A stretch of 64,000 bases of DNA from an uncultured Caulobacterales bacterium (lineage in GTDB: Bacteria; Pseudomonadota; Alphaproteobacteria; Caulobacterales; Maricaulaceae), in the NCBI GenBank assembly GCA_937928165.1, contig CALFVT010000009.1, forward strand, positions 62,001 through 126,000, read 5' to 3'. A program made the translations under genes and the position numbers. The first letter of the stretch is position 1. Each line of letters opens with the position of its first letter. The notes under the pieces were generated by a model. That model searched no databases and was not told the origin of the DNA. It saw nothing but the letters and a program-made list of their open reading frames with translations. Shown here piece after piece: positions 1 through 43,813 of the stretch.

Positions 1-2532
1 TTATCAACATCAGTGTTTGTGGTAGGATGCAGCGGTGGCTCGCCCGAAGGGGCTTTGGATGAAAAATCCAGTGTATCATCTCAAGTTTTGGCCGCTGAAG
101 TGGACGCCGTTACCCCGGCACTTAAGCCTGAAAAATCTATTATTAGGCCCCGTAATTGGCCCGCCGTTAAGACCGCGCCGCTAGACCCTAAAGTCGAGGC
201 GCGTATCGATGATATTATTTCAAAAATGACCCTTGAGCAAAAAGTAGGTCAAGTTTTGCAAGCTGATAGTAATGCGGTGACCCCGGAAGAAGTTAAAACC
301 TACCGTCTTGGTTCTGTCTTAAGCGGCGGAAATTCAGCCCCCGGTGATCTGCCTTATGCAAATGCGCCGGCATGGATTAAGGCTGCTGATGAATATTATG
401 CCGCTTCGGTTGATCCGGAAGGCGTTGAAGTTGCTATTCCAATGGTATGGGGCATTGACGCCGTTCATGGTCATGCAAACCTAACGGGCGCGGTTGTTTT
501 CCCGCATAATATCGGTTTGGGCGCTGCCAATGATCCTGATCTTTTAAAACGCATTGCCGAAGTTACGGCAACGGAGCTAAGCGTGTCGGGCCATGACTGG
601 ACATTTGCGCCGACATTAGCCGTGCCGCAAAATGACCGCTGGGGACGGGCTTATGAAGGGTTTTCTGAATCGCCTGAAATCGTTAAATCTTATGGCGGAG
701 CTATTGTTCGCGGCCTTCAAGGAGAGAAGGGTACGGATGGGTTTATGGCTGACGGAAAAGTCATATCCAGCGCGAAGCATTTTCTTGGGGACGGCGGAAC
801 AGAAAACGGCGTTGACCAAGGGGACGCGCGAATTACGGAAGCCGAGTTGCGGGACATTCATTTAGCTGGCTACCTCACAGCGGTTGCGGACGGTGCGCAG
901 TCTGTCATGGCAAGTTTTTCCTCATGGGATGGTCAGCCCATGCACGGGCAAAAAGAGCTTTTAACAGATGTTCTAAAAGGGCGAATGAATTTTCAAGGGT
1001 TTGTTGTGGGCGATTGGAATGGTCATGCCCTTATTCCGGGTTGTACGGCGACAGATTGCCCGCAGGCGCTTAATGCAGGTCTTGATATGTATATGGCGCC
1101 TGACAGCTGGAAAGGGCTTTACGAGTCCTTGCTTATACATGTGAAATCAGGCCGGGTTCCAATGGTGCGCCTTGATGATGCAGTTCGCCGAATTTTACGA
1201 GTTAAGATTAACTCAGGCGTCTTTGAAAAACCCAAGCCTAGTGCGCGCAAATATTCAGGACAAACAGCCTTGCTTGGCTCCCAAGCCCATCGTGATGTCG
1301 CCCGAGAAGCTGTGCGTAAATCTATGGTGCTTTTAAAAAATGATAATCAACTGCTTCCCCTGAAGGCGGGATCAAATATTCGCGTTGTTGGTAAGGGCGC
1401 AGATAGCATTGCTAAGATGGCCGGAGGTTGGACGTTATCTTGGCAGGGCGGTAAACATACAAATGATGAGTTCCCCAATAGCCAAACTATTTTAGCCGCT
1501 ATTCAAGAGGCTGCCGCCGCTGCGGGGGGGCGCGTAAGCTTTGACCCTGATGGGACATCTGCGCCGGGGGACGCTGATGTAGTAATTGCGGTTTACGGCG
1601 AAGACCCTTACGCGGAGTTTCAAGGTGACCGTGAGAATGTAGATTTTACGCCGAATGATTTCGACCCGCAAAATCTGAAAGCCTTCAAAGAGGCGGGCGT
1701 GCCGGTAGTATCTGTTTTCTTATCCGGGCGACCTTTATGGACAAATCCCGAATTTAATCTGTCTGATGCTTTTGTTGCCGCTTTTTTGCCAGGTAGTGAG
1801 GGCGGCGGTGTGTCGGATTTATTATTTCAAACTGAACCAAGCTATGACTTTACAGGACGGCTCTCTTTTTCTTGGCCAAAACTTGCAACTCAAAGCAAAT
1901 TAAATGCCTATCATGCAAATTATGATCCCTTATTTAAATTAGGTTACGGGCTTAGCTATAAAGACGACAAAACGTTAGGTGAGTTATCAGAAGAGAGCGG
2001 AATTATTAGCGGTCCGGGCGGTGCGAAAGGTATTTTCTTTGAAAAGGGAGCCAGCCCGCAACCATGGCGTTTGGCGGTTAACGGTACGAATATTGAAACA
2101 ATCCCCTATATCGACGGCAAAATAGATCTCGCTGGCTATGACCACACCGCCCAAGAAGATGGCCTTCGCGTGGACTTTAAAGAAGGCGACAATATTTTCT
2201 CAATTTCTTCACGTTATGGCCATGATTACCAGCGCGAAACAAATGGTGCGATGGAGTTGTCTTTCATGAGTAAAGTCATCAATGGGTCGTCTTCTGCGCA
2301 ATTAGCTTTGGGATGCCCGGAGACAGGCGCTTGCGAAACTTTCCGCTCTGTAACTTTGACCCCTGAGTGGCGCGAAACCCGTATATCTTTAAAATGTTTT
2401 GACCGCGCCGGTGCGCAAATGGGGCAGCTTAAACAAGCTTTTGCTCTACAAGCCCCTGCTGGTACAAGCATTGCTTTGTCAAATATTCGCTTAAAAGAAG
2501 AGAGCGCTGCGGGTATTCGCTGCGAGAATTAA
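1..2532 (+). CDS. GH3 family beta-glucosidase, lipoprotein (5' end outside window)
   Basis: Glycoside hydrolase family 3 exo-acting beta-glucosidase, expected to release glucose from beta-glucans or oligosaccharides in the periplasm. The reading frame is open from base 1, so the true start lies upstream. The first visible residues (LSTSVFVVGC) look like the end of a lipoprotein signal peptide with a VVGC lipobox, implying lipid anchoring. The GH3 N-terminal barrel shows WGIDAVHGH and the nucleophile motif VVGDWNG (Asp codon at 1012-1014). A second alpha/beta domain follows (KSMVLLKNDNQLLPL; GRPLW). The last ~150 residues resemble the C-terminal beta-sandwich of ExoP-type GH3 enzymes. It is convergent with the gluconokinase gene, with 3 bases between the two stop codons. 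The family assignment is firm; the exact substrate (laminarin, cellobiose or other) cannot be read from sequence. Confidence 0.93.
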   Translation, partial: LSTSVFVVGCSGGSPEGALDEKSSVSSQVLAAEVDAVTPALKPEKSIIRPRNWPAVKTAPLDPKVEARIDDIISKMTLEQKVGQVLQADSNAVTPEEVKTYRLGSVLSGGNSAPGDLPYANAPAWIKAADEYYAASVDPEGVEVAIPMVWGIDAVHGHANLTGAVVFPHNIGLGAANDPDLLKRIAEVTATELSVSGHDWTFAPTLAVPQNDRWGRAYEGFSESPEIVKSYGGAIVRGLQGEKGTDGFMADGKVISSAKHFLGDGGTENGVDQGDARITEAELRDIHLAGYLTAVADGAQSVMASFSSWDGQPMHGQKELLTDVLKGRMNFQGFVVGDWNGHALIPGCTATDCPQALNAGLDMYMAPDSWKGLYESLLIHVKSGRVPMVRLDDAVRRILRVKINSGVFEKPKPSARKYSGQTALLGSQAHRDVAREAVRKSMVLLKNDNQLLPLKAGSNIRVVGKGADSIAKMAGGWTLSWQGGKHTNDEFPNSQTILAAIQEAAAAAGGRVSFDPDGTSAPGDADVVIAVYGEDPYAEFQGDRENVDFTPNDFDPQNLKAFKEAGVPVVSVFLSGRPLWTNPEFNLSDAFVAAFLPGSEGGGVSDLLFQTEPSYDFTGRLSFSWPKLATQSKLNAYHANYDPLFKLGYGLSYKDDKTLGELSEESGIISGPGGAKGIFFEKGASPQPWRLAVNGTNIETIPYIDGKIDLAGYDHTAQEDGLRVDFKEGDNIFSISSRYGHDYQRETNGAMELSFMSKVINGSSSAQLALGCPETGACETFRSVTLTPEWRETRISLKCFDRAGAQMGQLKQAFALQAPAGTSIALSNIRLKEESAAGIRCEN

Positions 2533-2535
2533 TTT

Positions 2536-3042
2536 TTAAAATGAATTATTTAATCGGTGAATATAAACCGTAATCTGGTTAAGGATTGCGGTTTTTGTTT
2601 GATTGGAATTTACATCAAGGCCGCCTTTGGGCGGGGACCATGCGTTAAATTGACTGTCCATAAGGGCGGGCGGCATGAAGTGATCGCGCGCCTGCATACG
2701 CTCTAGGGCTCGGGCAGGGCTTAAGTTAAGTTTAATCCAAATAATCTTCCGTGTAATATCTGATATTAATTTGTTTTGAACGAAGCTTGTCAGGGCGGAG
2801 CATGATAGGATTAAGGCATGATCTGGGGCGTTATTCACGTCTTTGCAAATAGTGTTTATCCATGTTTCGCGGTCATTATCTGTGAGTGGTTCGCCGCTGG
2901 ACATTTTTTTTATATTGGCCGGAGGGTGGTAATCATCTCCTTCTAAAAAGGAGAGCGATAATTGATCCGCAAGAGCGCGTCCAATCGTTGATTTGCCAGA
3001 CGCGGATACGCCGCAAATTATAATAACATAGGGCAGGCTCAT
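2536..3042 (-). CDS. gntK: Gluconokinase (GntK/IdnK type)
   Basis: Phosphorylates D-gluconate with ATP to 6-phosphogluconate, feeding the Entner-Doudoroff or pentose phosphate route. The protein is about 168 residues, normal for the family. The P-loop GVSASGKST is near the N-terminus, followed by the family signature EGDDYHPPANIKKM with substrate-binding His and Asp, and later the ARDHFMP segment. I chose the ATG at 3042 because it forms a 4-base ATGA overlap with the stop of the upstream gene; a start 15 bases further out is possible. It is co-transcribed behind the DUF6445 gene. Its presence beside a beta-glucosidase and a TonB receptor supports a sugar-use role for the locus. Confidence 0.9.
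   Translation of the reverse strand: MSLPYVIIICGVSASGKSTIGRALADQLSLSFLEGDDYHPPANIKKMSSGEPLTDNDRETWINTICKDVNNAPDHALILSCSALTSFVQNKLISDITRKIIWIKLNLSPARALERMQARDHFMPPALMDSQFNAWSPPKGGLDVNSNQTKTAILNQITVYIHRLNNSF
2566..2596 (+). terminator. Rho-independent terminator of the GH3 gene, inside the end of the gluconokinase gene
   Basis: A 10-base-pair stem (AACCGTAATC with GATTGCGGTT, one G-U pair), an 8-base loop and a T5 run form a good intrinsic terminator for the rightward GH3 transcript. It lies inside the last codons of the leftward gluconokinase gene, so these bases serve as both terminator and coding sequence. Confidence 0.7.
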
Positions 3043-3728
3043 GACGGGCGGTCCCATAAGAACGTATTAAGGGTTATGCGTGCCGTCTTAAGGGTAATAT
3101 TATCTGTTGTCCCGTTTGGGATGCAACCTGAATGTAAACTTTGCCCGCGGTATATAATTGCGCGGTCAGGGCGAGCTTTGACTTCACCAATCATCTCATA
3201 GCGGGGGTCATTCCCGTAAAAATATTGAGCTTTGGGGACACCAAACTCATCATTATCCGCTTCAAGACCTCTGCGGTAAGACTCGGCGCGGGCCTTTGTG
3301 ATTGTCTCGAACCCTGTCCTCCGGTGCCGATAAAAGGCTGTGCCAGCATCTTTATCCCCTTGGATATAATGAAGCAGTGCGAAAAGTGTTGGCTCATGCC
3401 CGTCGTAATGGGGCAAGCGCTGTCCTATAGCTAATTTTTCGGGGGGACGATTGACAACTGCATACATACAGCTCTCTATATCAAGGCCATGACTAAGGCC
3501 AAAAACAGATGACATAATTTCTGGAAGTTCTACGCGGCGAAGGCTTAAATAATTTTTATCCCCCGTTGCCTGCAAGCCCGGGTAATAGGCGCTTGCAGGC
3601 GTATAATATTGTGATTTTCCATGACTTAACAAGAGGTCTAATTTCTCACTAAAATTATCCATGATGATAACCGGTTCTTTTTCTTGCCCGAAATTTTCAA
3701 CAGAATATGTAAAACTGGAAACTGCCAT
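3039..3728 (-). CDS. DUF6445 family protein with 2OG-oxygenase-like residue pattern
   Basis: A 229-residue cytoplasmic protein with no signal peptide. It resembles the DUF6445 proteins often found with tryptophan-halogenase-like genes and TonB receptors in proteobacterial carbohydrate loci. Read directly: a central LPHYDGHEP segment (His107, Asp109), a distal LHSG (His199), and a basic residue soon after (Arg217 in ARITLN). This spacing matches the HxD...H...R/K pattern of Fe(II)/2-oxoglutarate oxygenases such as prolyl hydroxylases, so an oxygenase fold is a reasonable inference; activity is unproven. It is the first gene of a leftward two-gene operon with gntK and is divergent from the halogenase genes, sharing a 134-base control region that holds a LacI-type dyad. 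Confidence 0.72.
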   Translation of the reverse strand: MAVSSFTYSVENFGQEKEPVIIMDNFSEKLDLLLSHGKSQYYTPASAYYPGLQATGDKNYLSLRRVELPEIMSSVFGLSHGLDIESCMYAVVNRPPEKLAIGQRLPHYDGHEPTLFALLHYIQGDKDAGTAFYRHRRTGFETITKARAESYRRGLEADNDEFGVPKAQYFYGNDPRYEMIGEVKARPDRAIIYRGQSLHSGCIPNGTTDNITLKTARITLNTFLWDRPS

Positions 3729-3795: not shown

Positions 3796-3809
3796 TGACA
3801 ACCTTGTCA
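3796..3809. promoter_or_regulatory. LacI-type operator dyad in the DUF6445/halogenase divergent control region
   Basis: TGACAACCTTGTCA is an almost perfect 14-base palindrome (only the central pair breaks symmetry). It sits between the divergent DUF6445 and halogenase genes, just downstream of a TATGAT hexamer (3785-3790, repeated at 3790-3795) that could be a -10 element for the rightward transcript. The same dyad occurs in front of the TonB receptor. The TGACAA half-site with a central CG/CC step is typical of LacI-family sugar repressors. No regulator gene is in the window. Confidence 0.6.
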
Positions 3810-3862: not shown

Positions 3863-5380
3863 TTGAAAAAGATTATTATCATAGGCGGCGGAACTGCGGG
3901 TTGGATGAGTGCCGCAGGTATATCATCCATGATGGCAGGGCTTGATCTCGATATTACGTTGATTGAATCTGAAGCGATTGGCGTTGTTGGAGTTGGCGAA
4001 GCAACCTTGCCGCACATTAAATTTTTCAATGAAACGATTGGTATTAATGAGGCCGAATTTATGGCGGCAACCTCAGCGACCTTTAAACTTGGAATCGAAT
4101 TTGTTGACTGGGGACGATTAGGGGATAGTTATATCCATCCTTTTGGTGAGTTTGGATTGGCCAATGCAGGTGTGCCCTTTCATCAATATTATAACAAGAT
4201 GAGCGATCAGTCAGATATCGGATCTTTGCAAGATTATTCTTTGCCGATTATGGCCTGCCGCGCTGGGAAGTTTGAACCGCCTTCACAAGACCCGCGGTCT
4301 GTTAAATCAACCTATCGTTATGCCTATCAATTTGACGCGATTAAATATGCGCCTTTTCTCCGCCGCCATGCAGAAGCGCGCGGCGTTACGCGAATCGAAG
4401 GCAAGGTCACCGAAGTTAAGCTTGATGCTGAAAGCGGTGATATTCAACGGCTGCGGCTTGAAAACGGGCGAGAGGTGAAGGGTGACTTATTTATTGATTG
4501 CACAGGGTTTTACGGCCTTTTAATTGAAAAGACCCTTAAGGCGGGCTATGATAAATGGACGAAATGGCTCCCCGTTGACCGCGCTGTTGCTGTTCCGTGT
4601 AAAAGCACGGGGCCGCTTTTGCCTTATACCCGGGCAACGGCAGATAAAGCCGGATGGCGCTGGCGTATCCCCTTGCAACACCGCACCGGAAACGGGCATG
4701 TTTATGCGAGTGATTTTATCTCTGATGAGGATGCACGGGATTCATTGATTGAAAACCTTGAAGGACAGATGTTATCAGAGCCGCGCCTGCTTCGATTTAC
4801 AACAGGAAAACGCCGTAAGCTCTGGATCAAAAATTGCGTAGCTATTGGGCTCTCGGGCGGATTTTTAGAGCCGCTGGAGTCGACCTCTATCTATCTTATC
4901 CAAGAAGGTATAACCAAATTGATTGAGTTATTTCCGCGCCGTAGCGGGTTCAATATTGACCGCGAGGAATATAACCGTTTGATGGATATTGAATTTGAAC
5001 GTGTTCGAGATTTCCTTATTTTACATTATCATGCCACGGAACGTGATGACACGCCGTTTTGGAATCATATGCGGCGGCTTGATATTCCCGATAGTTTGGC
5101 TGAAAAGATGGAGCTTTTTCGCTGCCGTGGCCGTGTGGCGAAATATGATCTAGGTTTGTTTTTAGAGCCAAGCTGGGTTGCGGTTTACATGGGCCAAAGA
5201 TTTGCGGCGCAAGATTATGATCGCCGCGTTGATCTATTGCCCCAAGACAGTGTATCGTCACATATGAACGGGCTTCGAAATTTAATGGCGCAGACGGCGG
5301 CTAAAATGCCGTCCCATCAAGCCTATATTAAAAAACATAACATGCGAAGCCCTCACGGGGCTGTGACCTCGGCCTCTTAA
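3863..5380 (+). CDS. Flavin-dependent halogenase (tryptophan halogenase family), copy 1
   Basis: A 505-residue enzyme of the flavin-dependent tryptophan halogenase family, which uses reduced FAD, oxygen and halide to halogenate an electron-rich substrate. Visible motifs: the FAD-binding GGGTAGWM (residues 8-15), GVGEATLP (43-50), FKLGIEF with Lys75 at the position of the essential lysine of PrnA/RebH, the family signature GWRWRIP (264-270), and GGFLEPLEST (332-341) holding the conserved glutamate. Length is normal. The start is TTG, supported by AGGGAG 5 bases upstream and no nearer ATG. It is the first gene of a rightward operon and its stop overlaps the next start by one base. The substrate is unknown; relatives in such loci (e.g. 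BrvH of Brevundimonas) act on indole-like compounds in vitro, and a role in carbohydrate uptake loci is unexplained. Confidence 0.9.
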   Translation: MKKIIIIGGGTAGWMSAAGISSMMAGLDLDITLIESEAIGVVGVGEATLPHIKFFNETIGINEAEFMAATSATFKLGIEFVDWGRLGDSYIHPFGEFGLANAGVPFHQYYNKMSDQSDIGSLQDYSLPIMACRAGKFEPPSQDPRSVKSTYRYAYQFDAIKYAPFLRRHAEARGVTRIEGKVTEVKLDAESGDIQRLRLENGREVKGDLFIDCTGFYGLLIEKTLKAGYDKWTKWLPVDRAVAVPCKSTGPLLPYTRATADKAGWRWRIPLQHRTGNGHVYASDFISDEDARDSLIENLEGQMLSEPRLLRFTTGKRRKLWIKNCVAIGLSGGFLEPLESTSIYLIQEGITKLIELFPRRSGFNIDREEYNRLMDIEFERVRDFLILHYHATERDDTPFWNHMRRLDIPDSLAEKMELFRCRGRVAKYDLGLFLEPSWVAVYMGQRFAAQDYDRRVDLLPQDSVSSHMNGLRNLMAQTAAKMPSHQAYIKKHNMRSPHGAVTSAS

Positions 5381-6489
5381 TGACAGCGCCGATTCGTAAT
5401 ATTACCCTTATGGGAGCGCCATTATCATGTGCGCTTGCCGCTGCCATGATCGCAGCGCGTTTACCCGCTGGTGCCTGTTATTTGGATGTTGTTCTGACAG
5501 GGTCAGACGTAAAAGACATTATTTACTCACGGCCCGATATTCGCCACGTCCACCAACTTTTGCAAATCACCGAAGGGGAGCTGCGCCAAAAAGCTGGCGC
5601 GCAAATGGTGATGGCGCTTCCTTATAGGTCTGGGTCAAAAGGCATTATCCAAGCGCCTCTTGGGGCTTATGGAATGCCGCGCCGAGGCTGTGAGTTTCAG
5701 CATTACTGGCGGCGTGCTTTCGCGGTATCAAAGGCGCAGGACATGAAGCATTATAACCTCGCTTTGCGGCTTCATGATGCAGGCTATGTTATTGCGGATA
5801 CACCGCCGGACCTTCCTATTCTTGACCCAGCCTATAAATTTGATACCAAGGCATATGGCAGGCTTTTAATGGCGATTGCCCGTGAGACTGCGCCGCTTAA
5901 TATTTATAACAATAAGGATGTTGTTTTAAAGGCAGGCCAACACGGGATCTATAACTTAGAGCTTTCAGGCCAAAATTATAGCGCAGACTTAATTCTTGAT
6001 ATGCGCATTGAAAGTAAACCCCAAAATAAATGGATGATGAATTATCTTCCTATCGATATTGATGACCATTTACCTGGAGTCTTGTTGCACCAGGTGAAAA
6101 CAGCTATTGAGCGGCTTTTTTCATTATGGCCAGATACAGCCTATAATGCTGCTGAGCCGCGTGAATATAACCGCCTCACAGCGGAGCATATTGCACATAT
6201 TGATGATATGCGGGCCTTACTGAGTGGTGATGAAAAGCTTGCATTAAGGCGTGAGCGGATTCGCCGTAAAATTAATCTATTTCAAAGCCGTGGACGTTTG
6301 CCTCTGGAAGACTATGATGTTTTTACCAAAGCAGAGTGGATAAGTGTTCTTCGCGGGGTCGGTGTCATGCAGATGGGTTATGACCGGCTGGCAGACCGCG
6401 AGTCGATAAGTGATATCCAGCTATGGCTGGAGACATTAAGCCTGAATATTGATAGGCAGATAATGGCGCTGAAAGGCGGTGTGAGATGA
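5380..6489 (+). CDS. Degenerate halogenase-like protein lacking FAD and catalytic motifs
   Basis: A 369-residue intact reading frame between halogenase copies 1 and 2, overlapping the first by 1 base (TAATG) and the second by 4 (ATGA). By eye it aligns with the halogenases in several places: FDTKAYGRLLMAIARE with the FDAIKYAPFLRRHAEA region, KWMMNYLPID with KWTKWLPVDR, REYNRLT, and a C-terminal FQSRGRLPLEDYDVFTKAEWISVL segment. However, the Rossmann glycines are gone (LMGAPLSCA instead of IIGGGTAGW), the catalytic-lysine position reads Val77, GVGEAT is absent, and about 100 residues including GWxWxIP and the GGFxEP motif are missing. It probably cannot bind FAD or halogenate. Its retention as an open, translationally coupled frame suggests a structural or regulatory partner role. 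It is not recognisable as any named family. Confidence 0.75.
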   Translation: MTAPIRNITLMGAPLSCALAAAMIAARLPAGACYLDVVLTGSDVKDIIYSRPDIRHVHQLLQITEGELRQKAGAQMVMALPYRSGSKGIIQAPLGAYGMPRRGCEFQHYWRRAFAVSKAQDMKHYNLALRLHDAGYVIADTPPDLPILDPAYKFDTKAYGRLLMAIARETAPLNIYNNKDVVLKAGQHGIYNLELSGQNYSADLILDMRIESKPQNKWMMNYLPIDIDDHLPGVLLHQVKTAIERLFSLWPDTAYNAAEPREYNRLTAEHIAHIDDMRALLSGDEKLALRRERIRRKINLFQSRGRLPLEDYDVFTKAEWISVLRGVGVMQMGYDRLADRESISDIQLWLETLSLNIDRQIMALKGGVR

Positions 6490-8018
6490 ATATAAATCAT
6501 AAGCAGGCACCGCCAGTGCGTAATGTCATTATTGTCGGCGGCGGTACAGCGGGCTGGATGACGGCTGCGGCTTTGTCAAAATATCTTGGTAAGACTCCAG
6601 TGACAATTACGCTTATTGAGTCGGAACAGATTGAAACTGTTGGCGTAGGAGAGGCAACGATCCCTGCGATTTCACAATTTAATTCCATATTGGGCGTTGA
6701 TGAATTTGAGTTTTTAAAAGCAACCCAAGGAACTTATAAGCTGGGGATTGAGTTTGAAAATTGGGGTCATATTGGCGAGAGCTATTTTCACCCTTTTGGT
6801 GTTCACGGTTTTGACCTTGAAGGGATTGATTTTCATCATTTTTGGACGCGCCATAAAGAACTTGGCAGCACGGAGCCTTTGCAAAATTATTCTTTAAATA
6901 CGCGCGCTGCCCATATGGGGAAGTTTATTCGTCCAGAGAAGCAACATGGTAGCGTCATTAACCGGCTGAAATATGCCTTTCATTTCGATGCACTGCTTTA
7001 TGCTAAGTTTTTACGCCGTTATTCAGAAGCGCGCGGCGTTACCCGTCATGAGGGTCTTGTCGATAAAGTCGATGTTCGTCCCGAAAGCGGTTTTATTAAC
7101 AAGATAGGACTGAAGGACGGACGTGAATATGCAGGTGATCTCTTTATTGACTGTACAGGTTTCCGCGGTGTGTTGATAGAGGGTGCACTTAAGAGCGGCT
7201 ATGAAAACTGGCATAAATATCTCCCGGTTGACCGCGCAGTTGCGGTTACAACGGCCCGAACAGATACGCCGGCTCCTTTTACACGGGCAACGGCATATGA
7301 CGCCGGCTGGCAGTGGAAAATCCCGCTTCAATACCGTGATGGTAATGGCTATGTTTATTGTCATGATTATTTGTCCGAAGATCAGGCGGAGGTTGACTTT
7401 CGCGCCCGTCTTACAGGCGAGCTTTTGAAAGAGCCTAAACACCTGCGCTTTACAACAGGGCGGCGTAAAAAGTTATGGAATAAGAATTGTGTGGCAATCG
7501 GTTTGTCAGGCGGGTTTATGGAGCCGCTTGAATCGACAAGTATCCACATGATACAATCGGGCATATCAAAATTGATTGCCTTATTCCCATCCAGAGACAT
7601 GCCCCAAACTGAACAAGATGAATATAATCGTCTTCTGCATGATGATTTTTCTCATATTCGAGACTTTCTTGTGCTGCATTATGTGGCGACGCGCCGTGAT
7701 GATAGCCCGCTTTGGAATTATGTTCGCAATTTAAAACTTCCGGATAGTCTGGCTTATAAAATGGAGCTATTGGCAGGGAATGGCCGCTTCTTTAAATATG
7801 ATGCGGAGCTATTTGATGTGACAAGCTGGCTGGCTGTTGCTGCGGGTCAAGGTTTTGCACCTAAGGGTTATAATCCGCTCGTTAAAGGCCTAAGTGATAG
7901 TAATATTTCTCAGAGTCTTGCCAATATGCGCGATGTGATTGAAAAAGCCGTCACGGCCATGCCGCCGCATATAGATTTTGTGAACCGGTTTTGTAAAGCG
8001 GGCCCTGTTCATGTATAA
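6486..8018 (+). CDS. Flavin-dependent halogenase (tryptophan halogenase family), copy 2
   Basis: A 510-residue halogenase-family protein. The N-terminus carries GGGTAGWM (residues 18-25), then GVGEATIP (53-60), YKLGIEF with Lys85 at the catalytic lysine position, GWQWKIP in the middle and GGFMEPLEST in the C-terminal half, so every expected FAD and catalytic motif is present. It starts inside the stop of the degenerate paralogue (ATGA), indicating coupled translation. It is clearly a paralogue of copies 1 and 3 but diverged along its full length, so the three are old duplicates or separate acquisitions rather than a recent amplification. The substrate is unknown. Confidence 0.9.
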   Translation: MNINHKQAPPVRNVIIVGGGTAGWMTAAALSKYLGKTPVTITLIESEQIETVGVGEATIPAISQFNSILGVDEFEFLKATQGTYKLGIEFENWGHIGESYFHPFGVHGFDLEGIDFHHFWTRHKELGSTEPLQNYSLNTRAAHMGKFIRPEKQHGSVINRLKYAFHFDALLYAKFLRRYSEARGVTRHEGLVDKVDVRPESGFINKIGLKDGREYAGDLFIDCTGFRGVLIEGALKSGYENWHKYLPVDRAVAVTTARTDTPAPFTRATAYDAGWQWKIPLQYRDGNGYVYCHDYLSEDQAEVDFRARLTGELLKEPKHLRFTTGRRKKLWNKNCVAIGLSGGFMEPLESTSIHMIQSGISKLIALFPSRDMPQTEQDEYNRLLHDDFSHIRDFLVLHYVATRRDDSPLWNYVRNLKLPDSLAYKMELLAGNGRFFKYDAELFDVTSWLAVAAGQGFAPKGYNPLVKGLSDSNISQSLANMRDVIEKAVTAMPPHIDFVNRFCKAGPVHV

Positions 8019-8033
8019 ATTACAGGCCTTTAC

Positions 8034-9542
8034 ATGATAGAAAAATTAGACAAGCTTATAATCCTTGGGGGCGGCACTACAGGCTGGATGACGGCTGCGG
8101 CCCTCGGCACTTTGCTTAAAGGTACGGGAACGCAGATCACTTTGGTTGAATCTGAAGCGATTGGAACTGTGGGCGTAGGCGAAGCGACGATTCCGCCGTT
8201 AATAGCTTTTAACGAGATGTTGGGCGTTGATGAAAACCAATTTGTTCGCGAAACACAAGCAACGTTTAAATTAGGTATTGAATTTATTGACTGGTATAAG
8301 CTTGGGCATAGCTATATCCATCCTTTTGGGGATTTTGGTATCGATTTTGATGTTCTCCCCTTTTACCAATATTGGGCTAATCTAAATAGCCAAGGCTTGG
8401 CGGGGGATCTTTTTGATTATTCTCTTATGGTGCAAGCTTGCCGTGCAGAAAAGTTTATGCGTCCATTAACAGACCGTCCGCAATCGGCCTTGTCGGGTAT
8501 TAATTACGCCTTTCAATTTGATGCTGGCCAGTACGGAGCCTTTCTTCGCCGCCATGCAGAAGCAAAGGGGGTGCAGCGCGTTGAAGGACGGATTAATAAG
8601 GCTATACAAAATGCTGAAACGGGGCATGTTGAAACCCTGCATTTAGATGATGGACAAACGCTCTCTGCCGATTTCTTTTTTGACTGCTCGGGCTTTCGCG
8701 GGCTCTTAATAGAAGACACGCTTAAGGCCGGTTATGAAGATTGGAGTGAGTGGCTACCTGCAAACCGCGCTGTGGCCGTTGGCTGCACAAAAACCGAAGA
8801 GCCGATTCCCTATACCAAGGCGACGGCGCAAAATGCCGGTTGGCAGTGGCGTATTCCCCTCCAGCATAGAACGGGAAATGGTTATGTCTATTGTAATGAT
8901 TTCATTAGTGATGACGAAGCGGCGCAAACTTTATTGAGCAATCTTGATGGTGAGCCTTTAGCTGATCCAAAGTTTCTGCGTTTTACAACGGGACGGCGAA
9001 AGAAATTTTGGGATAAAAATGTCGTGTCCTTGGGATTAGCCGCAGGCTTCATGGAGCCTCTGGAATCGACGAGTATTCATCTTGTGCAAACAAGTCTTGC
9101 ACGGTTTATGTCCCATTACCCTGATAAGCGTATTTTACAATCTGATATCAATGCCTTTAATGAGAAAACTATACTTGAATATGAACGGGTTCGCGACTTC
9201 CTTGTTCTGCATTATTCGGCTACGCTACGTGACGATACGGCGTTCTGGCGTCATTGTCAGGCTTTGCCGCGCAGTGAGCATTTGAACCGTAAAATCGAAC
9301 AATTTTCGCAAAGCGGGCGTATATTTGAAGCGCCGTCTGATCTCTTTAGTACAGCGAGTTGGTTGGCGGTCATGTATGGGCAGGGAATTGCGCCTAAAGG
9401 CTATAATAAAGTGACGGATAAAGCACCTTTGGATGTGATCCAAAAACGAATCAATTACATCCAAGATGTTATTATGAAATCTGTCGGCGTTATGCCGGGT
9501 CATAGTGAGTTTATTGCGGCTCACTGCCAAGCGGATATCTAA
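8034..9542 (+). CDS. Flavin-dependent halogenase (tryptophan halogenase family), copy 3
   Basis: A 502-residue third intact paralogue. GGGTTGWM is at residues 12-19, followed by GVGEATIP, FKLGIEF with Lys79, GWQWRIP and AAGFMEPLEST. The ATG at 8034 follows copy 2 after a 15-base gap, making it the last gene of the four-gene run. One difference from copies 1 and 2 is Thr for Ala in the nucleotide-binding turn and AAGF for SGGF before the EPLEST motif. A gene for the flavin reductase these enzymes need is not present in the window, so reduced FAD must come from elsewhere. Confidence 0.9.
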   Translation: MIEKLDKLIILGGGTTGWMTAAALGTLLKGTGTQITLVESEAIGTVGVGEATIPPLIAFNEMLGVDENQFVRETQATFKLGIEFIDWYKLGHSYIHPFGDFGIDFDVLPFYQYWANLNSQGLAGDLFDYSLMVQACRAEKFMRPLTDRPQSALSGINYAFQFDAGQYGAFLRRHAEAKGVQRVEGRINKAIQNAETGHVETLHLDDGQTLSADFFFDCSGFRGLLIEDTLKAGYEDWSEWLPANRAVAVGCTKTEEPIPYTKATAQNAGWQWRIPLQHRTGNGYVYCNDFISDDEAAQTLLSNLDGEPLADPKFLRFTTGRRKKFWDKNVVSLGLAAGFMEPLESTSIHLVQTSLARFMSHYPDKRILQSDINAFNEKTILEYERVRDFLVLHYSATLRDDTAFWRHCQALPRSEHLNRKIEQFSQSGRIFEAPSDLFSTASWLAVMYGQGIAPKGYNKVTDKAPLDVIQKRINYIQDVIMKSVGVMPGHSEFIAAHCQADI

Positions 9543-9851
9543 TGTCGGCACAGTAAAACGCTGGGTTTGCAGCTAAAATTATTTAAGATATAGCTCTGTT
9601 TCGATCAATATGGTGGCATCATAGGTGACATGCTGTGAATATCGTAAAAAATTAGGGTTAAACTTGTGTAATGTGACGTTGAAGTCACACTATCAAAAAG
9701 AATAAATTTTTTGTGTTTGGAGGAATTGACTTAAAACCATGAGTTTTGCATTATGTTGACAACGTTGTCAGGCTGGCAACATACGCATTATGTATAAAAT
9801 TAAAAAAATATGCGTTTATTTTTTTAACCGCGCTTTGGCGCAACGGGGATT
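9543..9851 (+). promoter_or_regulatory. 309-base control region in front of the TonB receptor
   Basis: No gene is visible here. It holds a plausible sigma-70 promoter: TTGACT at 9726-9731, a 17-base spacer, CATTAT at 9749-9754. A LacI-type dyad sits immediately downstream, over the expected transcription start. The rest is AT-rich with no strong terminator after the third halogenase gene, so some read-through from the halogenase operon into the receptor is possible. Confidence 0.5.
9757..9770. promoter_or_regulatory. LacI-type operator dyad in front of the TonB receptor
   Basis: TGACAACGTTGTCA is a perfect 14-base palindrome, 2 bases after the putative -10 hexamer. It differs by one central base from the dyad at 3796-3809. 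A second, overlapping dyad (GTTGTCAG / CTGGCAAC, 9764-9780) extends the site and could hold a second dimer. The position fits repression by a LacI-family regulator. Confidence 0.65.
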
Positions 9852-12800
9852 ATGATTATGAATCGTTCAAGACGTATTCCGTCAAAAGAAAATCTTAGAG
9901 TATTACTCGCCGGAGCGTCAGCTCTCGCGTTAAATCTATTCACATTAGCGCCTGTTTATGCGCAGGATGCCGATACGGTGGATGATGCAACTGATGAAGT
10001 TATTGCAACGGGTATTCGTCAATCCATTATTGATGCGTCTGACATTAAACGTAATGCGGATACATTTGTTGATGCGATTACGGCGTCTGATATTGGCGCG
10101 CTTCCTGATCGATCTGTCTCAGAAGCCCTGCAGCGGGTTCCGGGGGTTAATACACTACGATTTGCGGCCCCGAATGACCCTGATCACTTTGCGGTTGAGG
10201 GTAGCGGCGTTGTTATTCGCGGCCTTCCTTTTGTACGCTCAGAGCTTAATGGCCGGGATGTATTTGGCGCGAATACAGGCGGAGTTTTGGGGTTTGAAGA
10301 TGTATCGCCTGAGCTTTTGAGCACAGTGAAGGTCTTTAAAAACCAATCGGCGGACCTGATTGAGGGCGGTATTGCGGGTACGATTGATCTTACGACACGT
10401 GTGCCATTTGATAAAGAAGGCCCGCAAGTCGCCTATTCACTCGAGCTGAATTATGGTGATAAAGCTGAGCGGGTTACGCCGTCAGGCTCTTTCTTGCTTT
10501 CTAATACATGGGAAACAAAAGCGGGTAAATTTGGCCTCTTGGGTAACTTATCTGCATCAGAATTAATTTCACGTGCAGATAGTACGCAGATCGCGGCTTT
10601 TGAATTGCCTGATCCAAATCAAGACATTAATAACGGTGTTGGTGCCAATCAACTTATTCCGGCGGGTGCAGGTATTCGTCAACAGGATTTTGAACGGGAC
10701 CGCCGCGGTATTGCTTTAGCAGGCCAATGGGAAAGCCCCGATCAAAAATGGCTCGCCACAGCACAATTCCTCCGCTCGGACTCGACTCTGGAATGGGGTG
10801 AAAATGTTGTTCAAACTCAAGCCGACGGTACGCAGAATACGCGTGGTAACGGAAACTTCTTGGTTACAGATGCTGTATTTGATGACGAAGGGGTTTTCCA
10901 AACGGGAACGATTACTGATAATACGCAGTGGCGCGGGCCAAATGCGACGGCGGCATTATTACCAAGTAGCGGCGGGCAACAACAAGCCAGCACACGTAGC
11001 TTCCTAGAGGAAGATGAAACAACTGATTACGGCTTTAACCTTAAATATGCACCGACTGATAATTTGCGTTTTAACTTTGATGCGCAATATATCGACTCGT
11101 CTAATGAAGTGTCGCAAGTCGAAGTCATTCGGTCTTTCTTTTCCCGGGTTCGTATTGGCGAAGAAGAAAACGGTGTTCCGTCAGTGGAATTTCTTGTCCC
11201 CGATGGGGCGCCCGATAATTTCTTCGAATTGCCTTCGAGCCAGTTTATTCGCGCACTTGCCGACCAAAGAACATCTAATGATGCCGAATCTTTGGCTTTT
11301 AGAGGTGATGTTGAATATGATTTCTCGAATGACGGTTGGCTTAAATCAGTACGCGCGGGTGTGCGTTATTCCGATCAAGACACAGATATTCGCGAATCAG
11401 ACTTTAACTGGGGAAATATCTCCGAAGTTTGGACAGGCCGCGATATCAACGGGACAGCTTTTGGCCCGGGTACGAATAATGATTTTAATGATGTTGAGTC
11501 GATCTTACTCTTGGGCGGCAACACAAATCCGGCGCTTAATGATGCGGTTAATGGTTTCTTTGGCCCGGTAGGGTTTAATGATTTCCAGCGCGGCGCAGAC
11601 AATACGCCCGGATTTAACTCTATCCTCGCCTTTACAGGCCCTGGTGCGCGTGACTTTGAAGCCTTTGAGCAATTCCGCCGTGATTTGATTGCCGCAATAC
11701 CTCCAGGAACGCCTACGGGTACGCGCGCGTTTTGCGGTGCAGGCTTTGTCCCGCTTGCAGACCGGCAATGTACGAATGGTGACCAAATTATTCCGGGAAC
11801 GCCGTTTACAGAATCCGAAGTTACGAATCTATCGCGTGAAAACTTTGCCGCCTATACACGGTTTGATTTTGGTTTTGATAATATTGGCGGTTACGGTTTT
11901 ACCCTAGATGGTAACATAGGTATCCGTTATGTTCGGACCGAACGTGATATTGATACAGTGCAGCTTTTGCCCGCGTTTGATGGTTTGTTCAATCAAGCAA
12001 CGATTGATGCTAATGCAGTTGGTGGACCACTTGATCCATGTGATCCAAATGAGCCGAGAAACGCTGGCCAACAAATACCCGGTGCCTGTACGCTCGACCT
12101 TGCTGCTCTCCAAGGTATATTCGGTAATGGTAATGTTGTCAGAGTGCCAGTTAATGTCACTTATGATGAATGGCTCCCAAGTTTTAATGCAAAACTAGGG
12201 ATTACGGATGATCAACTTGTTCGTTTTGCCGTCTCCCGGACGTTAACGCGGCCTAATTCTGATGAAGTTAATCAACGACCGTCTATTGGTACACTACAAG
12301 ATACGGTCGGTGCAGGGCAGTTTAACACCTTTGGCGGGTTCCTTGGTACGTTTTCTGGGAATGCACAATTATTGCCGCAAACTGCCTGGAATTTTGATCT
12401 GTCTTATGAGTGGTATTTTAACGACTCTGGCTCCATCACCCTATCTGGTTTCTACAAAAATATAAATAACTTTGTGACGCAGGGCGCATTAACGGTACCA
12501 AATCCAGATGGCGGTGACGTCGTGATTGATGGCAATCCGATTCTCTTTAATACGAATGTTAATTCGGAAGAAAATGCCGAAATAACGGGTTTTGAGGTGG
12601 CTTACCAACAATTTTATGACTTCTTACCGGGCCCATTATCAGGACTTGGCGCGCAAATTAACTACACATATATTGACGCTGAAGGGGTTCCGTCACTTGC
12701 TGATGAAGCCTTATTCGTCGGGCCAGCCAGTGACGGTCTTAATCCAGCCGGTGTTAACTTTGACGTTGATGACGGAATTTTCCCGCGCGTGTCAGAGCAT

Positions 12801-13118
12801 AATGTCAATATAATTGGTCTTTATGAAAAAGGCCCGTGGCAAGGCCGGGTGGCTTATAACTGGCGCGATGATTTCTTGGTAACGCCGCGAGATGTGATTT
12901 TCCCATTCTCGGCTATTTACCAAGAAGCGACAGGTCAAGTAGATGCTTCAATTTTCTATGCGGTCAATGAGAACGTCCGTATTGGCTTCCAAGGGGTCAA
13001 TATCTTGGATGACATTACTGAAACCACTCAAACTATTCGTGAAGATGGCTTACGTGCTCCGCGATCCTTTATTCGAAGTGATCGCCGATTCTCTGCTATC
13101 TTACGGGCAACATTCTAG
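9852..13118 (+). CDS. TonB-dependent receptor, probably for oligosaccharide uptake
   Basis: A 1088-residue outer-membrane receptor. A signal peptide ends near APVYAQ-DAD (about residue 38). A TonB-box-like DEVIATGIR follows, then a plug domain (DRSVSEALQRVPGVNT; GLPFVRSELNG), and a long 22-strand-type barrel ending in aromatic-rich strands with a terminal Phe (RFSAILRATF). The type with the IRQSI...DIGALPD plug is common in alphaproteobacterial carbohydrate loci. ATG at 9852 and 9858 are both possible; GGGG at 9845-9848 is better spaced for 9858. It is preceded by its own promoter and LacI-type dyad and followed by a strong terminator, so it is a single-gene transcript tied to the halogenase locus through the shared operator. 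The ligand is inferred from context only. Confidence 0.93.
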   Translation: MIMNRSRRIPSKENLRVLLAGASALALNLFTLAPVYAQDADTVDDATDEVIATGIRQSIIDASDIKRNADTFVDAITASDIGALPDRSVSEALQRVPGVNTLRFAAPNDPDHFAVEGSGVVIRGLPFVRSELNGRDVFGANTGGVLGFEDVSPELLSTVKVFKNQSADLIEGGIAGTIDLTTRVPFDKEGPQVAYSLELNYGDKAERVTPSGSFLLSNTWETKAGKFGLLGNLSASELISRADSTQIAAFELPDPNQDINNGVGANQLIPAGAGIRQQDFERDRRGIALAGQWESPDQKWLATAQFLRSDSTLEWGENVVQTQADGTQNTRGNGNFLVTDAVFDDEGVFQTGTITDNTQWRGPNATAALLPSSGGQQQASTRSFLEEDETTDYGFNLKYAPTDNLRFNFDAQYIDSSNEVSQVEVIRSFFSRVRIGEEENGVPSVEFLVPDGAPDNFFELPSSQFIRALADQRTSNDAESLAFRGDVEYDFSNDGWLKSVRAGVRYSDQDTDIRESDFNWGNISEVWTGRDINGTAFGPGTNNDFNDVESILLLGGNTNPALNDAVNGFFGPVGFNDFQRGADNTPGFNSILAFTGPGARDFEAFEQFRRDLIAAIPPGTPTGTRAFCGAGFVPLADRQCTNGDQIIPGTPFTESEVTNLSRENFAAYTRFDFGFDNIGGYGFTLDGNIGIRYVRTERDIDTVQLLPAFDGLFNQATIDANAVGGPLDPCDPNEPRNAGQQIPGACTLDLAALQGIFGNGNVVRVPVNVTYDEWLPSFNAKLGITDDQLVRFAVSRTLTRPNSDEVNQRPSIGTLQDTVGAGQFNTFGGFLGTFSGNAQLLPQTAWNFDLSYEWYFNDSGSITLSGFYKNINNFVTQGALTVPNPDGGDVVIDGNPILFNTNVNSEENAEITGFEVAYQQFYDFLPGPLSGLGAQINYTYIDAEGVPSLADEALFVGPASDGLNPAGVNFDVDDGIFPRVSEHNVNIIGLYEKGPWQGRVAYNWRDDFLVTPRDVIFPFSAIYQEATGQVDASIFYAVNENVRIGFQGVNILDDITETTQTIREDGLRAPRSFIRSDRRFSAILRATF

Positions 13119-13163
13119 GGTTTACTTAGCCTAGACATAGAAGAAAATTAGCTTCCCCCCTTG

Positions 13164-13191
13164 GGCTCTCCTTCATAGGAGAGCCTTTTTT
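13164..13191 (+). terminator. Strong intrinsic terminator after the TonB receptor
   Basis: An 8-base-pair perfect stem (GGCTCTCC / GGAGAGCC) with a 6-base loop, followed directly by T6. It ends the receptor transcript 46 bases after its stop codon. Confidence 0.9.
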
Positions 13192-41932: not shown

Positions 41933-43813
41933 TTAGAAATTGGCGCTAAGCCCGACAAAGACTGTGCGGCCTGGTGCGTTAAAGCCGATGACTTCTTGGT
42001 AATCTTCATCAAATAGGTTTTCTCCGCGAACGGATAAACTGACAATATCATTCACATCATAGCGGATATTGGCCCCCAAGAGGGTAAAGCTATCAAGCTC
42101 GACATTGCTGAATATAGCGAAATCCGTATCAAACTGGGAACCTGTATGATCGAGGGTTCCTGTGAGGGATATGTCATCACGGGGCCGCCACGTGGCTTGC
42201 GCGCTAGCGGTGAAATCAGGGCGGCGAATTTCCTCCGCGTCGTCTTCTTCGGCGTCTAAAAAGGTCAAGCTTCCGCTGAGATCAAGATTACTGACGGGAG
42301 ACCACTGGGCTTCAATTTCAATGCCCTCGCGGGAGCTATCTGTGAGGCTGTTTTGAACGGTTGAGGTGAAATCGGGATTGAAAATCGTTAGGATTTCATC
42401 TTCTAGGTCAGATTGGAAATAATCCACCGAGACCGAGGCACTGCCGCCGAAAAATTCTTGGTTATAACCAATATTAAAGCCTTCGGATGTTTCTGGTTGT
42501 ATATCTGCATTGCCAATGAAAGACCCGGGGAAAAAGCCAAAAATTTCTGTTAAGGTTGGGTTTTTAACCCCTGTCCCGTAAGAGCCGTAAAGCCGCCCGC
42601 CCAAAGCCTGTAGTGCATATCCGCCGCCAATGCGCCATGTGAAAGCATTATCAAAACGGTCATTAAAATCTTGCCGCGCAGAGCCGGTTAATGTGATGGG
42701 GCCTTGGCTGAATTTGTAATCGCCGGCAACGGCGTGATTCGTGATATTATTGCTTTGGTTCTGACCCGCGCCAATACCGCCAAAATTTTCAAAATTCTCA
42801 TCTTCCACTTCGCCTAAAACGGTAAGGCTATGGCCTTGGGTGAGGTCGATTTTGCTCGCCCAATTAGCTTGCAGGCGGCGGCCCTGGGTGTCGTTTTGGA
42901 AGCTCGCATTGGGGTCGCGGGTATCGGTTTCCGTCAAAGATAGACTGATTTTATTTTCTGTTCTCAGGGCGTTGAAACGGCCTGTAATATTGGCGCGGCG
43001 ATTATCGGTTACAAGGATATTATTGGTATTATTAAGCCGTCCGTCAAAGTCGCTATCGCTATCAAAATCTGAACGTAAATTGGACGCGGCATAAAGCGCG
43101 GAGAGGTTAAGCGGGCCAAAATTTACATTATTAAGCCCGAGTGATATAGAGCGGCTATTGCTGCTGTCGTCTTCACCGTCTTGGCCCGACACATCAAAAC
43201 CATCCGTGGAAAACGCATTGCCGTTTATGGATAAAGCGGCGGTGCCAATGGGGATAACGGCGCTGACTTGGCCTTCAATGGTGTTATATGTGCCATATTC
43301 CACAGAGGCTTGATAGCGCTCTTGGCGGCTTCCGGCGCGTGTGATGATGTTAATGACGCCGCCAATGGCGTCGCTTCCCCAAAGGGCGGATTGCTCCCCG
43401 CGCAGGACTTCAATTTTTAAAATATCTTCACTGCGGATACCCGCAAAATCAAATTCGCCCGTATTGGGATTACCCGCTTCAACCCCGTCGATGAGGACAA
43501 GCACATGATTGGCCTCACTGCCGCGAACGCGAATTTGCGTAAGGTTTCCCGCCGGGCCAGAGCGCGAAACGGCTAGGCCGGGTAAGGCGCGCAGAATATC
43601 TGATAGAAAGGCTTGTCCGCGCGCTTTGATGTCCGCTTCATTCAAGATAGACGCGGCGCTGGTTAATGATGCTATGGATTGATCTGAAATACGTGAGCCG
43701 ATTGTGATAATCTCATCATCTATATTAGGCGCATTGGCTAGATTTGTTTGTGCGTGGGCCGTTAGGCTTGTGAAGAGCGAGGCAAGTCCTGCTGTTAAAA
43801 GTAAACGTTTCAT
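41933..43813 (-). CDS. btuB: TonB-dependent cobalamin receptor (BtuB-like)
   Basis: A 626-residue outer-membrane receptor, the right size for BtuB. The signal peptide MKRLLLTAGLASLFTSLTAHA ends near residue 21; a TonB box-like DDEIITIGSR follows. The plug shows RALPGLAVSRSGPAGNLTQI, the conserved RGSEANHVLVLIDGVE and RGEQSALWGSDAIGGVINI. The barrel ends in FVGLSANF. AGGAGTCGTT precedes the ATG. The cobalamin riboswitch upstream on the same strand makes vitamin B12 the likely ligand. Confidence 0.93.
   Translation of the reverse strand: MKRLLLTAGLASLFTSLTAHAQTNLANAPNIDDEIITIGSRISDQSIASLTSAASILNEADIKARGQAFLSDILRALPGLAVSRSGPAGNLTQIRVRGSEANHVLVLIDGVEAGNPNTGEFDFAGIRSEDILKIEVLRGEQSALWGSDAIGGVINIITRAGSRQERYQASVEYGTYNTIEGQVSAVIPIGTAALSINGNAFSTDGFDVSGQDGEDDSSNSRSISLGLNNVNFGPLNLSALYAASNLRSDFDSDSDFDGRLNNTNNILVTDNRRANITGRFNALRTENKISLSLTETDTRDPNASFQNDTQGRRLQANWASKIDLTQGHSLTVLGEVEDENFENFGGIGAGQNQSNNITNHAVAGDYKFSQGPITLTGSARQDFNDRFDNAFTWRIGGGYALQALGGRLYGSYGTGVKNPTLTEIFGFFPGSFIGNADIQPETSEGFNIGYNQEFFGGSASVSVDYFQSDLEDEILTIFNPDFTSTVQNSLTDSSREGIEIEAQWSPVSNLDLSGSLTFLDAEEDDAEEIRRPDFTASAQATWRPRDDISLTGTLDHTGSQFDTDFAIFSNVELDSFTLLGANIRYDVNDIVSLSVRGENLFDEDYQEVIGFNAPGRTVFVGLSANF

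Follow-up and report, generated by a model that had tools for sequence, protein, structure and literature searches.

Analysis of a 64,000-nucleotide stretch of Caulobacterales DNA (the window) revealed an array of four halogenase-family genes whose second member, here called x, is not debris but a conserved component of the array. The same place that x keeps among relatives suggests that this dead copy serves as a functional partner subunit. We favour, with a probability of roughly one half (0.52), the reading that this is a LacI-controlled glycan-uptake locus in which BrvH-type halogenases and a non-catalytic pseudo-halogenase subunit act together on a bulky substrate.

The four halogenase frames (3863–9542) are consecutive, all on the + strand and all recognised by PF04820. 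Inspection of the DNA agreed with the junctions given in the original prediction, namely a 1-base overlap between p1 and x (TAATG), a 4-base overlap between x and p3 (ATGA), and a 15-base gap between p3 and p4. A genome-wide search with PF04820 gave five matching stretches, two of them inside x, and no PF04820 gene was found beyond these four. The neighbours, i.e., a GH3 enzyme, a gluconokinase, a putative oxygenase (DUF6445) and a TonB receptor, are likewise those read earlier. In the translated DUF6445 protein, HxD...H residues spotted by eye would be in keeping with a 2OG-Fe(II) oxygenase; comparison with solved structures gave no significant match.

Features of the locus, with window coordinates
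Feature	Coordinates	Strand	Evidence or remark
GH3 beta-glucosidase-type glycoside hydrolase with Exop_C domain	13..2532	+	Pfam PF00933, PF01915, PF18559
Gluconokinase (GntK/IdnK type)	2536..3057	-	TIGR01313, 121.4 bits (cut-off 113.75)
DUF6445 protein, divergent from the halogenases	3039..3728	-	PF20043
Putative LacI-type operator-like site TGACAACCTTGTCA	3796..3809	.	promoter region of the halogenase operon
p1, intact BrvH-type flavin-dependent halogenase	3863..5380	+	505 aa, TTG start, PF04820 622.8 bits
p2 (x), pseudo-halogenase with the FDH fold but no catalytic residues	5380..6489	+	369 aa, PF04820 84.4 bits
p3, intact BrvH-type halogenase	6486..8018	+	510 aa, PF04820 616.6 bits
p4, intact BrvH-type halogenase	8034..9542	+	502 aa, PF04820 618.3 bits
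Putative operator-like site TGACAACGTTGTCA, a perfect palindrome, 5' of the receptor gene	9757..9770	.	motif search
TonB-dependent receptor, TonB-Xanth-Caul type	9852..13118	+	TIGR01782, 587.9 bits
Terminator-like hairpin 3' of the receptor gene	13163..13186	+	weak support, as the region has 17 terminator-like sites against 16.5 in shuffles

In p1, p3, and p4, PF04820 covers profile positions 1 to 456/457 of 458 (616–623 bits), and all three keep GGGTxGW, VGEAT, [FY]KLGIEF with the catalytic Lys, GWxWxIP, and EPLEST, in line with the motifs listed in the original prediction. Comparison of p4 with BrvH (6FRL), Xcc4156 (6Y1W), and the Pseudoalteromonas L11 halogenase (9LUQ) gave matches at 439–490 bits. 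Judged by their sequences, the three are anciently distinct flavin-dependent halogenases of BrvH type, predicted to be catalytically intact. An explanation in terms of x as a partner does not account for p3 and p4.

The window's x lacks every motif kept by the intact genes, including GxGxxG, Lys, GWxWxIP, and Glu, and still passes the family threshold (84.4 bits, cut-off 21). In other loci, x was called from four missing motifs in combination with a profile-score ratio, so that the following residue counts are partly circular: the catalytic Lys was present in 276/276 intact genes and 10/76 x, the EPLEST Glu in 276/276 and 6/76, and the second Trp of GWxWxIP in 5/76 x. Trp438 (274/276 intact, 70/76 x) and Gly423 (257/276 and 72/76) are retained in both groups. 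An AlphaFold model of x (pLDDT 91.9, pTM 0.91) revealed a BrvH-like fold with Xcc4156 and BrvH as best structural matches (Z about 31, 2.7–2.8 Å, 357 residues), x falling short of its structurally solved relatives by some 120–130 residues. The gene evolves fast, as the window's x is only 32–34% identical to the x adjoining the closest p1 relatives; due to this divergence, dN/dS could be obtained just for x of other loci, where it was 0.17–0.41 in five unsaturated pairs of relatives (the saturated pair L049/L054 was dropped, and two of the five share L048), compared to 0.04–0.29 in intact genes. Altogether, with catalytic residues lost, the fold kept, and purifying selection seen in its relatives, x is a pseudoenzyme.

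Using x as query, we fetched 20 arrays, picked because the window's x matched there, and in 20/20 of them the second gene is poor in catalytic motifs, four (L043, L048, L050, and L052) keeping the Lys. With p1 sequences as query, 80 named loci were fetched, the best 80 of at least 586 confirmed stretches; they contain 46 multi-gene runs, of which 40 carry x. It stands directly after an intact gene in 40/41 cases, the remaining one being cut by a contig end, though these loci cannot reveal an x standing alone, since an intact gene is there by design. Six of the 46 runs are without a typical x, and the partner is therefore not needed in every array; in one of the six, L126, the third gene is of intermediate type, with Lys and GWxWxIP still in place. 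The junction seen most often is a 4-base overlap (15 from halogenase to x, 9 from x to halogenase), with frame starts that were chosen mechanically, include some upstream extensions, and bias junctions towards overlap. In the tree, the p2 genes form one side of a branch with support of 100/99, and all array positions need 5 changes compared to a shuffled mean of 45.8.

A further sample was chosen regardless of x. Among these 18 genomes of the family, with runs defined as same-strand genes in which the next gene follows within 400 bases and one gene scores above 600 bits, 5/5 runs (G001, G004, G007, G011, and G017) have a low-scoring second gene. G016 has two tandems of another subfamily at 375–438 bits, with no low-scoring gene between intact ones. 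A profile search for x in genomes without any PF04820 gene was negative (0/7), the positive control, x of G004, scoring 389.8 bits. Two wider totals were rejected as counts of x: 62/398 genomes by the x profile, where intact halogenases also matched and scoring was limited to the top three candidates of each genome, and 54/99 genomes, which includes intact halogenases. Overall, an x-type gene is found in second place of arrays in many other genera, and the halogenase-receptor architecture recurs in Alpha- and Gammaproteobacteria. The cluster is thus not unusual, and of the earlier description of its degenerate paralogue the loss of catalytic motifs stands, while 'degenerate' alone misses its conservation in second place.

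With receptor and p3 removed, x divergence follows that of p1 (partial r 0.40, 0/1000 permutations), a correlation that could come from a common operon history. In the preferred reading, translation of x would be coupled to that of p1, and both would form a hetero-oligomer with x filling one seat of the enzyme's possible dimer; BrvH is described as a dimer (PMC5945002). By analogy with the dead paralogues of trypanosomatids, x might activate, stabilise, or aim the active subunit. With FADH2, O2, and bromide or chloride, the halogenases would act on a bulky substrate that bears an indole or phenol and is tied to receptor-mediated uptake.

Regarding regulation, perfect TGACAACnTTGTCA sites occur just twice in the genome, one in front of p1 and one in front of the receptor gene, and the single LacI gene of the genome (PF00356) lies 8 kb from the locus. 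A third operator-like site with one mismatch precedes gluconate-dehydrogenase-like genes. When two mismatches were allowed, the genome gave 45 + 50 matches compared to 21 + 18 in the control. Among the 20 relative arrays, an operator-like site was detected in the promoter regions of seven (random regions: mean 1.0, maximum 5 in 200 draws), and an operator of this form was not found in the other 13. Motif search thus indicates putative operator-like sites common to the receptor and accessory genes. The parts of a TonB-dependent carbohydrate utilisation locus are present, namely a TIGR01782 receptor, GH3, LacI (PF00356), and candidate inner-membrane sugar transporters; L008 has GPH-type, SSS-type, and GntP-type transporter frames, named from translations alone. 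LacI-controlled glycan uptake through the TonB receptor is the best reading of these predicted elements: in the presence of the glycan the repressor would come off, and receptor and halogenases would be co-produced. The comparison of neighbourhoods proposed earlier revealed that in relatives, too, halogenases are linked to TonB receptors, glycoside hydrolases, and LacI genes, and together with the shared operator-like sites this upholds the suggested tie to sugar uptake.

To type the glycoside hydrolases, proteins were clustered by similarity and one member per cluster was scanned against Pfam (GH3 was assigned by similarity to that of the window); the enrichment p-values treat the loci as independent, though they are not. 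Loci with x (19 from L040–L059 and 39 from L063–L142; L046, with a divergent second gene, was counted as having no x) harbored GH3 (24/58), GH10 (15/58), GH9 (10/58), and GH43 (10/58), while GH13 (25/45), GH97 (8/45), and GH31 (7/45) were found in loci without x. This association of x with beta-glycan enzymes favours the substrate first proposed, a phenolic or indolic part of an imported plant or algal glycoconjugate, or a freed aglycone, halogenated alongside sugar uptake, as cell-wall glycans can bear phenolics and BrvH halogenates indole in vitro (PMC5945002). However, BrvH-type halogenases also stand in the alpha-glucan loci just listed, so that a glycan-borne aromatic fits poorly. An aromatic substituent is not expected on alpha-glucan. 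Moreover, reading the translated locus by eye turned up no gene for aromatic catabolism, and the halogenases, inspected likewise, showed no export signal, so that an aglycone would need to enter the cytoplasm. We regard this substrate as rather unlikely.

Instead, a diffusible halogenated small molecule, such as a bromoindole-like signal or defence compound, could be made during glycan consumption, with x in a regulatory role. BrvH prefers bromide and yields 3-bromoindole (PMC5945002), and three distinct intact paralogues could modify one scaffold successively. Against this, no scaffold-making genes (NRPS, PKS, RiPP) were recognised by eye in the frames (at least 120–250 aa) of the window and L008, and the neighbours are receptors, not biosynthesis genes, which leaves such a product improbable.

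Equally doubtful is that the enzymes halogenate the TonB receptor encoded beside them, on its tryptophans and prior to export, with x helping to present it. No neighbour is more common than the receptor (90/103 loci have a receptor cluster within the stretch fetched) though the type of sugar varies, and it carries conserved W520 and W527 at the base of a long loop. In its model (mean pLDDT 76), W520 borders the long loop and W527 lies beside a low-confidence stretch; the loops are too weak to place W527, and Foldseek matches are generic TonB transporters. In a first sample, W was found at position 520 in 56/56 adjacent and 1/11 non-adjacent receptors, with Trp contents of 1.66% and 0.73%, respectively, and of 65 complete receptors close to x arrays, 64 have the W520/W527 pair. 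Further points in favour are the divergence of p3 and p1, which follows that of the receptor (partial r 0.42 for p3, 0.23 for p1), and the open active site of BrvH, which resembles that of peptide-acting MibH (PMC5945002). On the other hand, x divergence did not follow that of the receptor (partial r 0.04, 301/1000 permutations), and in a wider sample of 141 receptors, those within 3 kb of a halogenase had both Trp in 95 cases, neither in 23, and one in 5. The full pair is thus absent in 28/123, 27 of them in loci without x. Receptors far from halogenases had both in 4 cases, neither in 13, and one in 1, two of the four (L173 and L174) having a halogenase 5 kb away. L213 and L225 show the pair with no halogenase within the fetched 15 kb, and G080, the genome of L213, has no PF04820 gene anywhere while its receptor keeps the pair. 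The pair may therefore mark a receptor clade with sugar-binding loop aromatics. As it follows the receptor clade in the wider sample and persists in G080, the results on receptor Trp are mixed, and their halogenation is not claimed as the mechanism. A more elaborate protein-modifying machine, in which p1 with x and then p3 and p4 would halogenate the receptor Trp before export and so tune loop aromatics for beta-glycan, is very unlikely.

That x is a functionless decaying duplicate surviving by chance is scarcely credible: its motifs are lost, a segment is missing, branches are long, and dN/dS covers x of relatives and not that of the window, but those dN/dS values, the frame open in 20/20 arrays that all fall on one branch, the high-confidence fold, and the prevailing 4-base overlap speak against decay.

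BrvH-type halogenases are studied as biocatalysts. If they normally act with a conserved dead partner and this was omitted from assays, it could help to explain both the low activity of BrvH on indole and why the natural substrate has been missed. A direct route to inducer and substrate would be offered by the conserved array, its operator-like sites, the lone LacI regulator, and the link to beta-glycan receptors. In addition, x adds a case to enzyme evolution, an inactive copy held in place across two bacterial classes. Were receptor halogenation true, modifying an outer-membrane receptor in this way would be the natural job of part of the orphan BrvH family.

TonB carbohydrate loci of Caulobacter/Xanthomonas type consist of a receptor, glycoside hydrolase, sugar transporters, and LacI regulator with common operator-like sites; the same parts are found here, with a halogenase set including a pseudo-halogenase added. 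In pyoluteorin synthesis, PltD is a halogenase-like protein, said to be without conserved motifs, inside a halogenase gene cluster, and it belongs to an antibiotic cluster, unlike the glycan locus here. Among the matches listed from the open-access literature, in the parts accessible, neither halogenases in TonB or glycan loci nor a dead halogenase paralogue were met; the enzymes are thus of a known kind, while a conserved dead paralogue was not met within that scope. Inactive paralogues work with active enzymes in trypanosomatid deoxyhypusine synthase (PMC3663545) and in AdoMetDC with its prozyme (PMC5201418); these enzymes are unrelated, and complex and activation are reported there, whereas for x we infer both. 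MibH (5UAO) shares the fold family with x (Z 22.3) and acts on a lanthipeptide, whereas no RiPP genes were recognised here by eye. The closest likeness in fold is to BrvH and Xcc4156, whose descriptions, in the excerpts available, mention no dead paralogue, receptor, or operator, while the window has a dead paralogue in a four-gene set, a receptor locus, and putative LacI-type sites. BrvH showed low activity on indole (2.5 mU/mg), which was considered unlikely as natural substrate, and a second halogenase gene adjoins the BrvH gene, as in the multi-gene set described here (PMC5945002).

The four consecutive frames of the halogenase operon, p1, x, p3 and p4, matched the DNA and translations in coordinates and junctions, as originally predicted, and all four matched PF04820 in a Pfam scan, being the only PF04820 genes found in the 2.6 Mb genome. 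The genes claimed to be intact, p1, p3 and p4, retained every motif and are BrvH-type halogenases. The second gene, x, had been described as a degenerate paralogue; it indeed retained none of the motifs, but in relatives it is kept as the second gene and under selection, and it is predicted to be folded.

A search of 99 genomes with x revealed 54 with a match, intact halogenases counted in, and yielded 20 relative arrays, a sample biased by x itself being the query. The neighbourhood comparison suggested in the original prediction showed a divergent second-gene paralogue in 20/20 arrays and a TonB receptor gene in 18/20 stretches. The arrays comprised four halogenase genes, apart from L043 (two) and L058 (three); their second gene lacked VGEAT, GWxWxIP and EPLES throughout and kept the catalytic Lys in 4/20. 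As a counter-sample, contigs were scanned with 13 p1 sequences, and the best 80 of at least 586 stretches, from Sphingomonadales, Caulobacterales, Alteromonadales, Cellvibrionaceae, Burkholderiales, Xanthomonadales and others, revealed 96 same-strand halogenase runs. With H for an intact gene, x for the motif-less paralogue and o for a motif-less gene of another subfamily, these were HxHH (14), HxH (13), Hx (9), HxHxH (1), HHx (2) and xHH (1, at a contig end), runs without a typical x (HH 3, oH 1, oHH 1, and one HHHHH with an intermediate third gene), and single genes (H 49, o 1). Thus, x was present in 40 of the 46 multi-gene runs of these best 80 loci, which hold an intact gene by design and hence are unable to show x alone. 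An x-profile search of seven genomes without any PF04820 gene gave no match, while the positive control (genome G004) recovered its x. Among 18 family genomes chosen regardless of x, 12 carried PF04820, and wherever a same-strand run included a gene scoring above 600 bits (five runs), its second gene was low-scoring.

Some loci were organized differently. The five-halogenase run of L126 harbored a less decayed second-type paralogue (11473-13053) with Lys and GWxWxIP kept and VGEAT and EPLES absent, possibly an intermediate en route to a dead subunit. In Cellvibrio mixtus (L119:6989-14506), two different motif-less paralogues each followed an intact gene (H-x-H-x-H). A convergent pair of intact halogenases adjoining a TonB receptor, with the dead paralogue absent, was seen in L061 (with GH97), L062 (with GH13), L089, L108, L124 and L232.

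Since the window's x is only 32-34% identical to its nearest relatives and too diverged, dN/dS was determined (in-house Nei-Gojobori script) on x of five unsaturated pairs of relatives, two sharing L048. Values were 0.182, 0.224, 0.171, 0.412 and 0.293; the intact genes of the same pairs ranged from 0.041 to 0.294, each below x of its own pair. Judged from these coding sequences, x of the relatives is under purifying selection. The catalytic Lys (10/76), the Glu of VGEAT (5/76) and of EPLEST (6/76) and the second Trp of GWxWxIP (5/76) were rare in x and present in 276/276 intact proteins, counts that are partly circular as x was defined by motif loss. Structural residues were retained (Gly8 75/76, Trp438 70/76, Gly423 72/76, Asn371 65/76). 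The proposed structure prediction, run on the window's x, gave an AlphaFold pLDDT of 91.9 and pTM of 0.91 (33 sequences), and VIA-align over 357 residues matched Xcc4156 (Z 31.5) and BrvH (Z 31.1); in the model, the halogenase fold is kept. With 369 residues, x is shorter than these structures (491-493), with a gap at about profile positions 209-339.

Partial distance correlations over 55 arrays (1000 permutations) gave 0.40 for x-p1 given receptor and p3 (0/1000), 0.13 for x-p3 (14/1000) and 0.04 for x-receptor (301/1000), the latter being no sign of an x-receptor contact in these arrays. Values for p1-p3, p3-receptor and p1-receptor were 0.47 (0/1000), 0.42 (0/1000) and 0.23 (1/1000). Though limited by shared history and fast-gene noise, these correlations favour a p1-x unit. 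BrvH is reported to elute as a dimer (PMC5945002), so that the simplest model is a heterodimer, as which p1 and x would pair.

In the phylogeny of 81 proteins, taken from the window and its 20 relative arrays, position 2 formed one side of a branch (100/99), positions 1, 3 and 4 each nearly so, and all positions together required 5 changes (shuffled mean 45.8). Subgroups recurred at every position, so that by this tree the array has mostly been passed on as a whole; within the subgroups, p1, p3 and p4 of the window paired with their counterparts in L056, an array of family f5. Branches of x were long (5.1 changes per column for the window's x), and the tree program warned of some long branches meeting. 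When 209 intact genes were placed in a larger tree, p1 required 9 changes versus 49 in shuffles. The best p1 relatives among the matches listed (L063, L064, L065; 66-71% identity) were Erythrobacter, Altererythrobacter and Sphingorhabdus records, apparently of another order than the host, and horizontal transfer of the array is possible.

Regarding the substrate, 58 loci with x harbored GH3 (24), GH10 (15), GH9 (10), GH43 (10), GH13 (3), GH97 (2) and GH31 (2), and 45 loci without x, among which L046 was wrongly counted, GH13 (25), GH97 (8), GH31 (7), GH3 (2), GH9 (1), GH43 (1) and GH10 (0). Thus, beta-glycan enzymes accompany x and alpha-glucan enzymes its absence (Fisher tests; loci non-independent). 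The commonest neighbour was the TonB receptor (90/103 loci). Modification of tryptophans of this co-encoded receptor is a possible but improbable role. W520 and W527 both occurred in 64/65 receptors near x arrays (the 65th had W and Y; two further receptors in x loci, more than 3 kb away, had neither), but a second clade of receptors adjacent to halogenases lacked the pair, and one genome without halogenases had it. The original suggestion of a glycan-borne aromatic is disfavoured as a general substrate, since the type of glycan enzyme varies between loci while the receptor stays the commonest neighbour.

Genes named upstream of the window on its own contig (stretch L008) and further frames around the locus
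Feature	Stretch	Position	Location	Basis
SSS-type symporter	L008	8623	upstream of window	named from translation
Cupin	L008		upstream of window	named from translation
Gluconate-dehydrogenase-gamma-like gene	L008		upstream of window	named from translation
GMC oxidoreductase gene	L008		upstream of window	named from translation
Sugar isomerase-like TIM barrel	L008		upstream of window	named from translation
LacI regulator	L008		upstream of window	PF00356
GPH-type transporter	L008		upstream of window	named from translation
GntP-type permease	L008		upstream of window	named from translation
SMP-30 lactonase	L008		upstream of window	named from translation
IS1-like transposase frame	L008	5773-6693	contig C9, ca. 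12-13 kb upstream of window	named from translation only
XRE/ImmA-IrrE-type regulator frame	L008	4575-5768	adjoins the transposase	named from translation only
DUF6445 gene	window	3039-3728		PF20043
Additional TonB-dependent receptor frame, smaller than the first (626 aa)	window	41933-43813	not close to halogenases	BtuB-like by eye

Together with GH3 and gluconokinase of the window, we infer for the L008 genes beta-glucoside uptake, hydrolysis and oxidation via gluconate. The symporter, which is the first of the sugar genes, lies 2-4 kb from the transposase and regulator frames; the locus may have moved. DUF6445 homologues were found in 8/103 halogenase loci; on visual inspection, the window's protein has HxD...H residues that would be compatible with a 2OG-Fe(II) oxygenase. 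The LacI gene was the sole PF00356 match in the genome. Two perfect operator-like sites, TGACAACnTTGTCA, occurred genome-wide, ahead of p1 and of the TonB receptor gene, respectively; a third, with one mismatch, preceded the gdh/GMC genes, and four further one-mismatch sites lay elsewhere. At two mismatches, 45 forward and 50 reverse matches were found genome-wide (control 21 and 18). Similar palindromes (at most one mismatch) occurred in promoter regions of 7/20 relative arrays (random mean 1.0, maximum 5 in 200 draws), 6/39 named loci with x (random regions 0.6, largest 3) and 4/41 without x (0.3, largest 2).

Among the matches listed from open-access literature, covered by titles and abstract starts, neither receptor-linked halogenase arrays nor a conserved dead paralogue were treated. 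BrvH-type enzymes are already known; within that literature, we rate the receptor-linked arrays with their conserved dead paralogue as the new part.
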